Below are positions 5,930 to 10,098 of a stretch of DNA of 64,000 nt, one piece after another (positions within the stretch are counted from its first letter, which is position 1; every line of letters begins with the position of its first letter). Made by a program: the position numbers and the translations under genes. This DNA is from Umezawaea tangerina (GTDB taxonomy: Bacteria; Actinomycetota; Actinomycetes; Mycobacteriales; Pseudonocardiaceae), in NCBI RefSeq assembly GCF_003002815.1, contig NZ_PVTF01000020.1, positions 62,001 to 126,000 on the forward strand. Direction: 5' to 3'. The notes below the pieces were generated by a model. It saw only the letters and a program-made list of their open reading frames with translations. It was not told the DNA's origin and made no database searches.

Positions 5930-5999
5930 CGTTGGGGTGGATTGGTTCTGGCTTCGGGTTCCGGCGGGGTCGGGCCGTGGCTTCGGCTGTCAGCGTGCT

Positions 6000-6116
6000 G
6001 TGGCCGATTTGACTTGGGGCCCCTCTTTTTGGGCCTCGTCGGGCGAAAAAGGGCAGGTGGTAGAGCCTGCCCGCCGACCAATTTTAGGCCCAAAAACCCC
6101 AAGTAAAATCGGCCAC
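6000..6116. repeat. Long imperfect palindrome downstream of purA
   Basis: The 117-base element folds on itself. Bases 6000-6019 pair with 6097-6116 at 19 of 20 positions, 6026-6036 pair perfectly with 6086-6096 (TTTTTGGGCCT / AGGCCCAAAAA), and 6051-6057 pair with 6066-6072 around an 8-base loop. It lies beyond the purA terminator and is locally much richer in A/T runs than its surroundings. No protein in it looks real. It may be a dispersed palindromic (REP- or MITE-like) element or a structured RNA; one copy cannot decide. Confidence 0.7.
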
Positions 6117-6260
6117 GTTCCGTGGGGTGTCCGGCGGTTGGTCGGGCTGGTGGCTTTAGGGCTGGAGTCGGCCTGTCAGCCTGTCCGCCTGGTTGCTCCT
6201 TTTGCCGGGAAGGCTCGTACACCGAGGTGTGTCAGCATTCGGGACGGGGGTGTCCGTGCG

Positions 6261-6289
6261 TTGACATCGTGTTGCGCGGCCCCAAAACT
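6261..6289 (+). promoter_or_regulatory. Predicted promoter of the sulfonate operon
   Basis: A consensus -35 TTGACA (6261-6266) and a weak -10 AAAACT (6284-6289) are separated by 17 bases. The predicted start of transcription falls at or next to the ATG at 6297, so the leader peptide mRNA is probably leaderless. Confidence 0.55.
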
Positions 6290-6296
6290 CGGGGTC

Positions 6297-6377
6297 ATGG
6301 GTGAGCGCGAGGTTCTGGTCGCTCGTCTGCACGTCGACCTCCGGCGGCAGGCGAGTGCGATCTGTCGCGCGCGCTGA
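6297..6377 (+). CDS. Cysteine-type regulatory leader peptide (26 aa)
   Basis: This 26-codon ORF has the pattern of the short actinobacterial peptides annotated as putative leader peptides before sulfur genes: LVARLHVDL, then R-Q-x-SA-x-CR at the end (SAICRAR). The Cys codon is four from the stop. It sits 62 bases before the sulfonate ABC operon, has a -10-like box about 7 bases upstream and no ribosome binding site, and is followed by an attenuator-like hairpin at 6393. In related mycobacterial systems ribosome stalling at Cys codons couples cysteine supply to expression of the downstream operon; the same role is inferred here. Confidence 0.8.
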   Translation: MGEREVLVARLHVDLRRQASAICRAR

Positions 6378-6392
6378 TCATCGTTTGACGTC

Positions 6393-6418
6393 CGGGCGCT
6401 GACGCCCGCATTCCTTTT
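6393..6418 (+). promoter_or_regulatory. Attenuator-like hairpin before ssuC
   Basis: A 6-bp perfect stem CGGGCG / CGCCCG (6393-6398 with 6403-6408) with a CTGA loop is followed by a T-rich stretch (TTCCTTTT, 6411-6418). It lies 15 bases after the leader peptide stop and before the ssuC binding site GGGAGA, so it is well placed for attenuation. Confidence 0.5.
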
Positions 6419-6439
6419 CGGTCACCGCTGGGAGAAATC

Positions 6440-7270
6440 GTGTCGATTTCCGCCGCGGGTGTACTCGCGCGCCCGGATGATGCAACGGCCGTGGCGGGTG
6501 GCACCCGGAGATCTCGAAAACGTCGTCCGCCCGATCTGCGCCGCTGGATCAGCCCGCTCGCGCTGGTCGTCCTCTGGCAGGTCGCGAGCAGCAGCGGTGT
6601 GCTGCCGCCGGACAAGCTCGCGTCGCCGGTGACGGTGCTGGGCTCCGCGGTGGAGCTGACCGCGGACGGGCAGCTGGGCAGTGCGTTCCTGGTGTCGATG
6701 GGGAGGGTCCTCGGCGGGTTCGCCATCGGGGCGCTCGTGGGTGTCGCGCTGGGGTTGTCGTCGGGGCTTTCCCGTTGGGGGGAAAGGATTTTCGACCCGC
6801 CGGTGCAGATGCTGCGGACGTTGCCGCACCTGGGGCTGATCCCGCTGTTCATCCTGTGGTTCGGCATCGGCGAGGAGCCGAAGCTGGCGCTGGTGGCGGC
6901 CGGGGTGGCGTTCCCGCTGTACCTCAACCTGCACGCGGGCATCCGGCAGACCGACCCCGGTCTCCTGGAGGCGAGCCGGGTGCTGGGGTACACGGCCGTC
7001 GAGCGGGTGGTGCACGTCGTGCTGCCGTCGGCGCTGCCGCAAACCCTGGTGGGGCTGCGGATCTCGCTCGGTGCGGCCTGGTTGTCGCTGATCGTCGCGG
7101 AGCAGGTCAACGCGGACGCGGGCATCGGGTACCTGATCAACAACGCGCGGGAGTTCCTGCGCACGGACGTGGTGGTGGTCGGGCTGCTGGTCTACGCGCT
7201 GCTGGGGTTGGCGACCGACGGGCTCGTGCGCGGGCTGGAGAGGAGGTTGCTGCGGTGGCAGGTGCGGTGA
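6440..7270 (+). CDS. ssuC: Sulfonate-type ABC transporter permease
   Basis: Membrane component (276 residues) of an aliphatic sulfonate/taurine-type importer. After a basic cytosolic N-terminus there are about six membrane spans, with the BPD_transp_1 core and its coupling loop EASRVLGYTAVERVVHVVLPSALPQTL near residues 174-200. The MLRTLPHLGLIPLFILWFGIGEEPK stretch is typical of SsuC/TauC. GTG 6440 follows GGGAGA. It is the first structural gene of a four-gene operon behind a cysteine-type leader peptide. Confidence 0.88.
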   Translation: MSISAAGVLARPDDATAVAGGTRRSRKRRPPDLRRWISPLALVVLWQVASSSGVLPPDKLASPVTVLGSAVELTADGQLGSAFLVSMGRVLGGFAIGALVGVALGLSSGLSRWGERIFDPPVQMLRTLPHLGLIPLFILWFGIGEEPKLALVAAGVAFPLYLNLHAGIRQTDPGLLEASRVLGYTAVERVVHVVLPSALPQTLVGLRISLGAAWLSLIVAEQVNADAGIGYLINNAREFLRTDVVVVGLLVYALLGLATDGLVRGLERRLLRWQVR

Positions 7271-7971
7271 GCGTTCGGGGGCTGGTCAAGGAGTTCGGTG
7301 ACCGGCGGGTGCTCGACGAGGTCGACCTCGACATCCGGCCCGGCGAGTTCGTGGCGCTGCTGGGGCGCAGCGGGTCCGGGAAGTCCACGCTGCTGAGGAT
7401 CCTGGCGGGGCTCGACGCCGAGGTGCGGGGGACGGTCGAGGTGCCCGGCACGGTGTCCGTGGCGTTCCAGCAGCCGCGGCTGCTGCCGTGGCGGCGGGTG
7501 TGGCGCAACGTGTCCCTCGGGCTGAGGGGTGCGGGCAAGCAGAAGGCCGCCGGGCGCGCCGTCGCCGAGAAGGCGCTGGCGGAGGTGCGGCTGACCGACC
7601 ACGTGGACGCGTGGCCGTTGACCCTGTCCGGTGGTGAGGCGCAGCGGGTGTCGCTGGCCCGCGCGCTGGTCCGCGAACCGGACGTGCTGCTGCTGGACGA
7701 GCCGTTCGGCGCGCTGGACGCGTTGACCAGGCTCGCGATGCACCACCTCGTCGACCAGTTGTGGCGCGACCACCGGCCCGCCGTGCTGCTGGTGACCCAC
7801 GACGTGGACGAGGCACTGCTCCTCGCCGACCGGATCCTCGTGCTGGACGAGGGCCGGATCGTCGCCGAACACCGCGTCGGCCTGTCCAGGCCGAGGCGCC
7901 GAGCCGCTTTCGCCGAGCTCCGCACCAGGGTGCTGGCCGACTTGGGGGTTGACGACGTTGAAGCCGCTTAG
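7255..7971 (+). CDS. ssuB: Sulfonate-type ABC transporter ATPase
   Basis: Cytosolic ATPase (238 residues) driving the importer. Walker A GRSGSGKST is at residues 37-45, the Q-loop is in AFQQPRLLPW, the signature is LSGGEAQ, Walker B is VLLLDEPFGALD, and the switch His is in LLVTHDVDEALLLADR. GTG 7255 is chosen because AGGAGG ends eight bases upstream; it overlaps ssuC by 16 bases. A GTG at 7267 is the alternative. The D-loop GALDALTR and its length match the SsuB/TauB subgroup. Confidence 0.88.
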   Translation: MAGAVSVRGLVKEFGDRRVLDEVDLDIRPGEFVALLGRSGSGKSTLLRILAGLDAEVRGTVEVPGTVSVAFQQPRLLPWRRVWRNVSLGLRGAGKQKAAGRAVAEKALAEVRLTDHVDAWPLTLSGGEAQRVSLARALVREPDVLLLDEPFGALDALTRLAMHHLVDQLWRDHRPAVLLVTHDVDEALLLADRILVLDEGRIVAEHRVGLSRPRRRAAFAELRTRVLADLGVDDVEAA

Positions 7972-8971
7972 GGATCTGCTGGTGGGTGTGCTCGCCGCGG
8001 GACTGCTGGCCGCCTGCGGGACGGCGGCCACGACGTCCTCGCGGGTGCCGAACGCCGTCAGCGCCGAGGACCTGGCCAAGGTGACGCTGAAGGTCGGCGA
8101 CCAGAAGGGCGGCTCGAAGTCGCTGCTCACGGCCGCGAACCTGCTCGCCGACGCGCCGTACAAGATCGAGTGGGCCACGTTCACGTCCGGTCCGCCGCTG
8201 CTGGAGGCCGCGTCGGCCGGGGCGATCGACGTCGGCGGGGTCGGCAACACGCCGCCGATCTTCGCGGCGGCCGCGAACGCGAAGATCGCCGCCGTGTCGG
8301 TGGCGAAGGGCAACGTCACCAGCGACGCGTTCCTGGTGCCCGGCGACTCGCCGCTCAAGGAGGTCGCCGACCTCAAGGGCAGGAAGGTCGCCGTGGCGAA
8401 GGGCAGCTCGGCGCACGGCCAGGTGCTCCTGACCCTGCGCAAGGCTGGCTTGTCCACAAAGGACGTGACGCTGAACTTCCTGCAGCCGTCGGACGCCTAC
8501 GCGGCGTTCACGCAGAAGCAGGTCGACGCCTGGGCGGTCTGGGACCCCTACACCGCGCAGGCCGAGCTGGAGGCGGGCGCCCGCGTGCTGGCGACCGGTG
8601 AGGGCACCTCGAACGGCTACACGTTCCAGGTCGCGGGCACCGCCGCGCTGTCCGACGCGGGCAAGAACTCGGCGATCAAGGACCTGCTCATCCGGTTGGC
8701 GAAGGCCCAGCAGTGGGCCGACACCCACCGCGAGGAGTGGGCGCGGGCGTGGGCGGAGGAGACCGGGCTGAAGATCGAGGTCGCCCGCGCCGCCGTCGAC
8801 CGCGGCGGTGACCTGCCGGTCGCGCTCGACGACGCCGTCGTGAAGTCCGAACAGGACCTGGCGGACGCGTTCAGCGAGGACAGGACGTTGCCCGGCAAGG
8901 TGGACTTCGCGAAGTTCACCGACCGCCGGTTCCAGGAGGACCTCAAGGCCGCCCGCGGAGGCAACTCATGA
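7958..8971 (+). CDS. ssuA: Sulfonate-binding lipoprotein
   Basis: Extracytoplasmic substrate-binding protein (337 residues) anchored as a lipoprotein: the hydrophobic leader ends in the lipobox LLAAC, followed by GTAATTSS. The mature part shows the SsuA/TauA signature regions VGDQKGGSKSLL, GAIDVGGVGNTPPIFAA and DAWAVWDPYTAQAE. TTG 7958 is chosen because GGGGG lies nine bases upstream and MKPLRDLLVG makes a standard leader; TTG 7949 would add three residues. The gene overlaps ssuB by 14 bases and ssuD by 4. Confidence 0.85.
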   Translation: MKPLRDLLVGVLAAGLLAACGTAATTSSRVPNAVSAEDLAKVTLKVGDQKGGSKSLLTAANLLADAPYKIEWATFTSGPPLLEAASAGAIDVGGVGNTPPIFAAAANAKIAAVSVAKGNVTSDAFLVPGDSPLKEVADLKGRKVAVAKGSSAHGQVLLTLRKAGLSTKDVTLNFLQPSDAYAAFTQKQVDAWAVWDPYTAQAELEAGARVLATGEGTSNGYTFQVAGTAALSDAGKNSAIKDLLIRLAKAQQWADTHREEWARAWAEETGLKIEVARAAVDRGGDLPVALDDAVVKSEQDLADAFSEDRTLPGKVDFAKFTDRRFQEDLKAARGGNS

Positions 8972-10098
8972 GCGTGACCCTGCACTGGTTCCTGCCGACC
9001 TCGGGCGACGGCCGCACGATCGTCGAGCGGTTCCACGCGAACCGCACCCAGGGCGCGCCCGCGCAGCGGGAGGCCGACATCGACTACCTGGCGCAGGTCG
9101 CCCGCGCCGCGGAGGCGAACGGCTTCGTCGGCGTGCTCACCCCGACCGGCACCTGGTGCGAGGACGCGTGGCTGACCACGGCCGCGCTGATCGCCGAGAC
9201 GAAGGCGCTGAAGTTCCTGGTGGCGTTCCGGCCCGGTGTCATCTCGCCGACGCTGGCCGCGCAGATGGCGTCGACCTACCAGCGGATCTCCAGGGGGCGG
9301 CTGCTGCTCAACGTCGTGACCGGCGGGGACGCGGTCGAGCAGCAGCGGTTCGGCGACTGGCACGACCACGACCAGCGCTACGCGCGCACCGACGAGTTCC
9401 TGCACGTGGTGCGCAACGCGTGGAGCGGGCAGCCGTTCGACTTCTCCGGCGAGCACTACCGGGTCGCGGGCGCGACCGTGCTGGCCGCCCCGGACCCGAC
9501 GCCGCGGATCTACTTCGGCGGCTCCTCGGACGCCGCGCTCCCGGTGGCGGCCCGGCACGCCGACGTGTACCTGACCTGGGGCGAGCCGCCCGAGGCGGTG
9601 GCCGAGAAGATCGGCCGCGTGCGCGCGTTGGCGGAGGCGCGGGGCCGCAGGATCCGGTTCGGCATCCGGTTGCACACGATCAGCCGCGACACGTCGGCCG
9701 AGGCGTGGCTGGAGGCGGCGAAGCTGCTGGACGCGCTGGACCCGGAACAGGTGCGCAAGGCCCAGTCGCAGCTCGGCGCGAGCCAGTCCGTCGGCCAGCA
9801 GCGGATGGTCGCCCTGCACGGCGGCGACCTCGGCGCGGGCGTGCGCGGCCTGGAGATCCACCCCGGCCTGTGGGCGGGCATCGGGCTCGTCCGCGGCGGT
9901 GCGGGCACGGCGCTGGTCGGCAGCCACAGCGAGGTCGCCGACCTGGTCGAGGAGTACCACTCGCTGGGCGTCGAGGAGTTCGTGCTGTCGGGCTACCCGC
10001 ACCTGGAGGAGGCGTACTGGTTCGGCGAGGGCGTCCGGCCCGAGCTCGCCCGGCGGGGCCTGCTCGCGGGCCAGGAGGACCTGGTCAAGACCGGCTGA
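8968..10098 (+). CDS. ssuD: FMNH2-dependent alkanesulfonate monooxygenase
   Basis: A luciferase-like flavin-dependent monooxygenase of 376 residues. It starts MSVTLHWFLPTSGDGR and keeps the SsuD-typical NVVTGGD, IYFGGSSDAA and YLTWGEPPE blocks and the C-terminal SGYPHLEEAYWFGEGV. SsuD enzymes cleave the C-S bond of alkanesulfonates to release sulfite for cysteine synthesis, using FMNH2 from a separate reductase. No reductase gene (ssuE) lies next to it. ATG overlaps the ssuA stop (ATGA). The four ssu genes and the leader peptide form one sulfur-scavenging unit, closed by the hairpin at 10101. Confidence 0.93.
   Translation: MSVTLHWFLPTSGDGRTIVERFHANRTQGAPAQREADIDYLAQVARAAEANGFVGVLTPTGTWCEDAWLTTAALIAETKALKFLVAFRPGVISPTLAAQMASTYQRISRGRLLLNVVTGGDAVEQQRFGDWHDHDQRYARTDEFLHVVRNAWSGQPFDFSGEHYRVAGATVLAAPDPTPRIYFGGSSDAALPVAARHADVYLTWGEPPEAVAEKIGRVRALAEARGRRIRFGIRLHTISRDTSAEAWLEAAKLLDALDPEQVRKAQSQLGASQSVGQQRMVALHGGDLGAGVRGLEIHPGLWAGIGLVRGGAGTALVGSHSEVADLVEEYHSLGVEEFVLSGYPHLEEAYWFGEGVRPELARRGLLAGQEDLVKTG

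Follow-up and report, generated by a model that had tools for sequence, protein, structure and literature searches.

The position of a short ORF 62 bases 5' of ssuCBAD-like genes in Umezawaea tangerina raises the question of whether the ORF regulates these genes and, if so, what it senses and how the signal reaches ssuC. We analysed the ORF in its window (the whole stretch of 64,000 nucleotides; Table 1) and compared it with leaders in related genomes. Our answer is that a leader gene of the NCBIfam NF042934 type, predicted to be leaderless, probably makes ssuCBAD respond to cysteine supply; this answer is drawn from sequence comparison and in silico folding. SsuA is the sole ssu product that passes the cut-off of its NCBIfam model (among the NCBIfam matches shown).

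Table 1. Features of the ssu leader locus (window positions).
Feature	Position	Strand	Basis or detail
-35 hexamer TTGACA	6261..6266	+	sequence
-10-like AAAACT (nAnnnT)	6284..6289	+	17-nt spacer from -35; -13 to -8 relative to ATG
Leader peptide ORF MGEREVLVARLHVDLRRQASAICRAR	6297..6377	+	ATG 6297; TGA stop 6375-6377; 26 codons
Conserved 14-codon motif, R10 to C23	6324..6365	+	pN/pS inside versus flanks, four downstream-gene groups
Possible coding hairpin CGTCG-ACCTC-CGGCG, one U-G pair	6332..6346	+	subfamily feature only
Single Cys codon TGT, three codons ahead of the stop	6363..6365	+	sequence; codon counts in relatives
Spacer, leader stop to ssuC	6378..6439	+	62 nt; C over G weakly (skew 0.14)
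6-bp hairpin CGGGCG-CTGA-CGCCCG	6393..6408	+	tail CATTCCTTTT
Shine-Dalgarno-like GGGAG of ssuC	6430..6434	+	sequence
ssuC-like permease, GTG start 6440	6440..7270	+	best family PRK11365 SsuC, score under its cut-off
ssuB-like ATPase	7267..7971	+	GTG overlaps ssuC stop
ssuA-like substrate-binding protein	7949..8971	+	TIGR01728 212.3 bits, cut-off 163.5
ssuD-like alkanesulfonate monooxygenase	8968..10098	+	family score under cut-off

Leader sets

Three sets of leaders were compared, the first and third of which may have leaders in common. Set 1 contains 135 leaders from 53 genomes, that is, 5 from the U. tangerina genome itself and 130 of the 150 matches listed; the other 20 matches were 4 own-genome matches and 16 that were dropped (G057:C57:40500, G044:C34:166497, G051:C1:2790303 and the 13 lowest). 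Set 2 contains 26 loci from an even draw across the phylum, 20 of which were found by our motif expression and 6 missed. Set 3 was collected with the pattern LHVDLRRQA, the Cys position being left open, and contains at least 118 matches in 117 stretches; 8 matches in long frames were set aside (including L265, LHVDLRRQASALC), and 110 are in short frames. Among the matches listed, 106 of these 110 have Cys at motif position +11 (H12 is numbered 0), and the four without Cys (L160, L226, L253 and L261) are not leader-like. The genes that follow the leaders were called with a custom GC3 rule (101 of 106 in set 3, among the matches listed) and named by sequence clustering, with representatives of the clusters scanned.

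Family membership and genomic context

The leader peptide scores 33.8 bits against NF042934 ('putative leader peptide'; curated cut-off, 27) and 20.5 bits against NF042936 (the Ms4527A Cys-rich leader; cut-off, 45). By sequence the 6297-6377 leader is, then, a member of the NF042934 family, an actinobacterial kind of leader peptide that is already known, with the proviso that NF042934 is a sequence profile that is labeled 'putative' and carries no tested mechanism; the score bears out the leader-peptide class named in the original prediction. Rfam gave no match at gathering thresholds in the whole 64-kb window.

The U. tangerina genome contains five NF042934-family matches at E < 0.001, four of them over the cut-off; with two weaker matches included, its leaders precede the ssu operon, a DUF4395 gene, an ABC permease, a nitrite/sulfite reductase, two FMN reductases and a luciferase-like monooxygenase. 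Family matches are present in 57 of 60 genomes of relatives at E <= 0.01 (over the cut-off in 52) and in 12 of the 198 drawn evenly from the phylum at E <= 1e-4. The sulfur-gene setting that had been proposed for such leaders holds in the relatives: the genes 3' of their leaders are mostly sulfur genes (sulfite reductase, 38; DUF4395/rhodanese, 32; SsuC, 10; SDF symporter, 10; n = 135, among the matches listed). Because the set 1 sequences were retrieved with a profile of the motif, we added a gene-first check. A leader was found at 17 of 30 SsuC-like matches (in 25 of the 60 genomes), always with TGT (17/17); 16 of these leaders were located with the motif expression and one (L304) by eye, L314 is at a contig end, and partial matches (e.g., L312) were judged roughly. 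Leaders are common among relatives, yet in open-licence PMC papers we found no published mechanism for the single-Cys type.

Two further arrangements were seen in the relatives. Pairs of leaders on opposite strands lie within ~250 bp of each other at G057:C57:40374/40500, G047:C1:6931167/6931391 and G051:C1:2790303/2790528 (among the matches listed), as if each divergent sulfur operon had one leader. In G028, which gave no family match at E <= 0.01, a leaderless-looking ORF precedes ssuC (L300; G028:C1, just 5' of 11538238, minus strand); it has neither motif nor Cys, its stop overlaps the ssuC start, and it may be a decayed attenuator that now serves to couple translation.

A predicted leaderless start

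The TTGACA hexamer, the -10-like box 17 nt from it and the leader ATG are present where the original prediction had placed them, and transcription is predicted to start at 6296-6297, at or beside the ATG. The AAAACT box has 3 of 6 consensus bases, and a sigma-70 scan calls no promoter; given a -10 this weak by consensus, we tested promoter spacing across the family. The looser pattern nAnnnT, which was chosen after the ssu alignment had been seen, is located at -13 or -12 of the candidate start in 102 of the 135 set 1 leaders (among the matches listed; control offsets, mean 13.5 and maximum 33) and in 76 of 105 leaders in a second collection (control mean 11.5, maximum 24). It is accompanied by TGAC at the -35 spacing in 69 of those 76 but in 16 of the 102 from set 1 (among the matches listed); TTGAC is kept in all 8 ssu leaders that were aligned, out of a cluster of 10. 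The strict form, TANNNT at -13, is found in 25/135 set 1 leaders (among the matches listed) and, as an exact family rule, was rejected in the second collection (0/105). Shine-Dalgarno-like motifs 5' of the leader starts are not in excess (8/135 in set 1, among the matches listed, vs a shuffled expectation of 8.6%). The spacing of promoter elements in relatives is evidence for leaderless transcription, with a predicted start at or beside the ATG, as originally proposed; the layout also agrees with the promoter features of Streptomyces lividans leaderless genes that are given in the available part of PMC8079986.

Selection on the peptide

All 135 set 1 leaders carry R at -2, D at +2 and R at +5, and 134 of them carry C at +11 (among the matches listed); the motif expression for this set demands the D at +2 and the R at +5, and all 135 leaders matched it, with none lost. 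The sole exception at +11 is L103 (G019:C51:26322-26372), in which a TGA stop is located exactly at that position, before a lipoprotein-like gene. L304 carries Gln at +5, so the Arg is not absolute. In four downstream-gene groups, pN/pS is 0.31, 0.26, 0.19 and 0.29 inside residues 10-23, and outside them it is 0.85-1.23 (-12 to -6) and 1.12-1.37 (+13 to +16). By these ratios the 14-residue stretch is under selection at the amino-acid level, beyond the Cys alone, and its flanks are unconstrained.

A leader-like ORF that keeps the N-terminal motif and lacks the Cys codon (MNELLTRRRHIDLGRRKSTG; L330-L332, at about 520660-520710 of G000:C3 and in two same-genus genomes) precedes an SDF-family symporter. 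This ORF has a Shine-Dalgarno sequence and is identical in the three genomes, with synonymous changes only.

The Cys codon

The codon at +11 is TGT in 104 of the 134 Cys-bearing leaders of set 1 (among the matches listed); for comparison, TGT accounts for 5.1% of 236 in the following genes and for 11/81 at the remaining Cys codons of these leaders (among the matches listed). In set 3, collected with the Cys position open, TGT is used in 106/106 Cys-bearing leaders, compared with 4.9% of 81 in the following genes (both among the matches listed), and in set 2 it is used in 20/20 readable leaders. The weight that had been placed on the single Cys codon is supported by its occurrence in nearly all set 1 leaders and by the uniform TGT of the Cys-open set.

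When the leaders are clustered by downstream gene, 30 of the 32 clusters with a Cys codon are all-TGT, although 18 of the 32 are single loci (among the matches listed). The exceptions are sulfite reductase (26 TGC and 12 TGT) and TauE (TGC in 4/4; among the matches listed). In the 26 genomes with a TGC sulfite-reductase leader (e.g., L004), the other leaders comprise 48 with TGT, 1 with TGC and 1 without a Cys codon (among the matches listed); TGC before sulfite reductase thus coexists with TGT elsewhere in the same genomes, that is, codon choice is operon-specific within a genome. Neither the UGU rule, nor its sulfite-reductase exception, nor the peptide-level selection was found in open-licence PMC papers, and together these features make one-Cys sensing open to direct reporter tests.

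Other codons are also biased in the ssu/symporter subfamily: V13 is GTC in 105/106 and R16 is CGA in 68/106 (among the matches listed). These codons would close a 5-bp hairpin within the ORF, with all five pairs in 96/106 compared with 20% in a codon-usage null (among the matches listed); the amino acids of this stretch are fixed in the subfamily. A family-wide coding hairpin was rejected, since folding is below the codon null in 29/32 rhodanese-group but in 16/38 sulfite-reductase leaders.

Spacers and a proposed mechanism

The spacers that follow the leaders are C-rich and G-poor: with starts chosen partly by Shine-Dalgarno strength, C exceeds G in 177/179, compared with 61% of 262 regions 5' of other genes, and the mean C-over-G skew is 0.28, compared with 0.06 in the control regions. 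The skew of the ssu leader spacer is weak (Table 1); those of two same-genus orthologues are 0.45 and 0.48. RNA on which Rho loads is C-rich and G-poor, and spacers of this composition appear to fit Rho better than a hairpin; the C-bias can also have other causes. A role for Rho at the cys leaders of mycobacteria was put forward in 2005 as a weak prediction (available part of PMC1262725).

Our proposal builds on what the comparison shows of family membership, leaderless spacing, peptide selection, UGU fixation, sulfur-gene context and, in relatives, C-rich spacers. Transcription would begin at or beside the ATG, and a ribosome would initiate on the 5'-terminal AUG and meet the single UGU23 with the conserved nascent segment in its tunnel. 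If Cys-tRNA is ample, the ribosome would finish and depart, leaving the spacer bare, and ssu expression would be cut, most likely through Rho-dependent termination. If Cys-tRNA is scarce, the ribosome would pause at UGU, where it would cover the last part of the ORF and the first part of the spacer, ssu would be expressed, and sulfur would be taken from sulfonates. The pausing, the pause signal, the direction of the effect and the Rho step are what we infer here; the Rho step, taken alone, is plausible and falls somewhat short of probable.

One tRNA, with anticodon GCA, is expected to decode both UGC and, via wobble, UGU, so UGU would be expected to be read more slowly and to be more sensitive to a shortage of Cys-tRNA. 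That shortage would raise rather than lower ssu expression is suggested by the biology of sulfonate scavenging and by mycobacterial precedent, that is, the Cys-rich leaderless leaders described in the available parts of PMC4633059, PMC9094748 and PMC13236596.

Several findings stand against this mechanism. The leader contains one Cys codon rather than a run, and a Cys-less relative with the N-terminal motif is maintained in three same-genus genomes. Modelled stalling leaves the ssuC start region of the U. tangerina copy unopened, and the C-bias of its spacer is weak. Also, 26 of the 101 genes called after set 3 leaders (e.g., L153, L155 and L164; among the matches listed) are cysteine dioxygenase-like, which is odd for a starvation rule. 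One representative of this group matches PF05995; by our reading, one such gene is followed by ssuC-/ssuB-like genes and another by a rhodanese-like gene, and the cysteine dioxygenase-like genes after leaders may serve sulfur recovery.

Alternative sensing and output steps

The conserved segment could itself be the sensor, as in TnaC: the nascent chain would sense cysteine or another sulfur metabolite, or would prime arrest, with UGU in the A site, and the arrested ribosome would shield the C-rich spacer from Rho. Selection at the amino-acid level is confined to residues 10-23, and, with codon 23 in the A site, R10, D14 and R17 precede the P-site residue by 12, 8 and 5 residues; according to the available part of PMC10941005, the essential W12, D16 and I19 of E. 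coli TnaC precede P24 by 12, 8 and 5. The ssu leader thus has the conserved nascent residues, under amino-acid-level selection and at fixed distances from the stall codon, that characterize TnaC-like arrest peptides. Rho also participates in the TnaC output (same source), and arrest peptides of this kind have a Rho loading site by the leader stop; here the relatives' spacers are C-rich, and that of the ssu leader weakly so. However, Asp is the only residue common to both peptides, the likeness was noticed post hoc and involves no homology, the Arg at +5 is replaced in L304, and the UGU rule points to decoding too; in addition, the TnaC stall involves free Trp and takes place at a stop codon (available part of PMC10941005), whereas in the ssu leader a Cys codon would be expected to occupy the A site. 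We regard arrest of this kind as unlikely. A dual sensor is similarly doubtful; in it, the TnaC-like chain (R 12, D 8 and R 5 from the P site) would arrest or prime at the A-site UGU, and codon choice would set the thresholds of the operons (UGU for most, UGC for sulfite reductase). If this were true, one cysteine signal would be converted into several set points.

In translational attenuation, a ribosome stalled at Cys would unpair RNA that hides the ssuC ribosome-binding site, as in mycobacterial polycysteine leaders; M. smegmatis provides a precedent (available part of PMC13236596), and the ssuC start codon can sit in a small hairpin. In 160 of 190 leaders, with 8 mononucleotide shuffles each and starts chosen partly by Shine-Dalgarno strength, the mean stalling gain is 1.08 kcal/mol, compared with 0.55 kcal/mol with shuffled leaders; the difference is not significant (p 0.11, a descriptive value because the leaders share phylogeny). 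In the U. tangerina copy, a ribosome modelled at the Cys codon does not open the ssuC start region (12.7 vs 12.4 kcal/mol), and we consider this route improbable.

Transcription attenuation of the classical kind, through an intrinsic terminator at 6393-6420, is less probable still. The hairpin and T-rich tail that the original prediction had described are present, and the 6-bp G+C core is kept in three same-genus genomes; however, the T run starts six bases past the stem, and the hairpin is missing from the five other ssu leaders (n = 8 aligned). Compared with shuffles, the spacer folds no better than chance (z -0.12) and the whole leader slightly better (z -1.33). As a family feature the terminator was rejected: terminator-like sites occur in 7/190 spacers compared with 4.3 expected from mononucleotide shuffles, which is near chance. 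The original prediction is right about the kind of element; its terminator is unsupported beyond the genus genomes compared, and it missed both the peptide selection before the Cys and the UGU.

It is very improbable that the ORF product works in trans as a free small protein, or that the ORF is translated without a regulatory role, even though regulation of the U. tangerina copy is a prediction from sequence: the stretches outside the motif are unconstrained, the relatives of the leader are found 5' of a wide variety of sulfur genes, and a free protein would have no need for a codon fixed as UGU.

Relation to known leaders

The cysteine-responsive leader that we propose agrees with NF042934 in its score over the cut-off, its motif and its sulfur-gene setting, and there is no tested difference from that family. 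Mycobacterial polycysteine leaderless attenuators are said to have been described by Canestrari in 2020. With these and with NF042936 (Ms4527A), the ssu leader shares a leaderless layout (predicted here), a short ORF before sulfur genes, a Cys near the stop and a related motif; the mycobacterial attenuators contain a run of Cys where there is one here, and hiding of the ribosome-binding site is not predicted here in silico.

The Cys leader ORFs of Seliverstov 2005 (PMC1262725) are likewise actinobacterial, with no conserved terminators and with Rho weakly predicted; unlike in the ssu leader, their Cys codons come in runs and the genes that follow are cys or cbs, and the available part of that paper does not mention the motif or a codon rule. 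For uORFC-8-2, located before Rhodobacterales cysS, ribosome-mediated attenuation at Cys codons was also proposed; as described in the available part of PMC8632094, it differs in that it has two Cys codons in tandem, which are mostly UGC, and is followed up by an intrinsic terminator as part of the device. Attenuators of the trpL type contain several regulatory codons and an intrinsic terminator, whereas the ssu leader contains a single Cys codon and a weak hairpin that is kept only in the genus genomes compared.

Other features of the locus

The hairpin that can include the ssuC start codon is small and A+T-rich (GAAATCG-TGT-CGATTTC, window 6434-6452), and in the L108 orthologue both of its sides have changed to match. 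A ~130-bp palindromic repeat is located at window 5995-6125, between purA and the leader; it has at least 40 matches in the same genome with 89-100% identity (40 of 146 candidates were scored) and looks like a MITE- or REP-like element.
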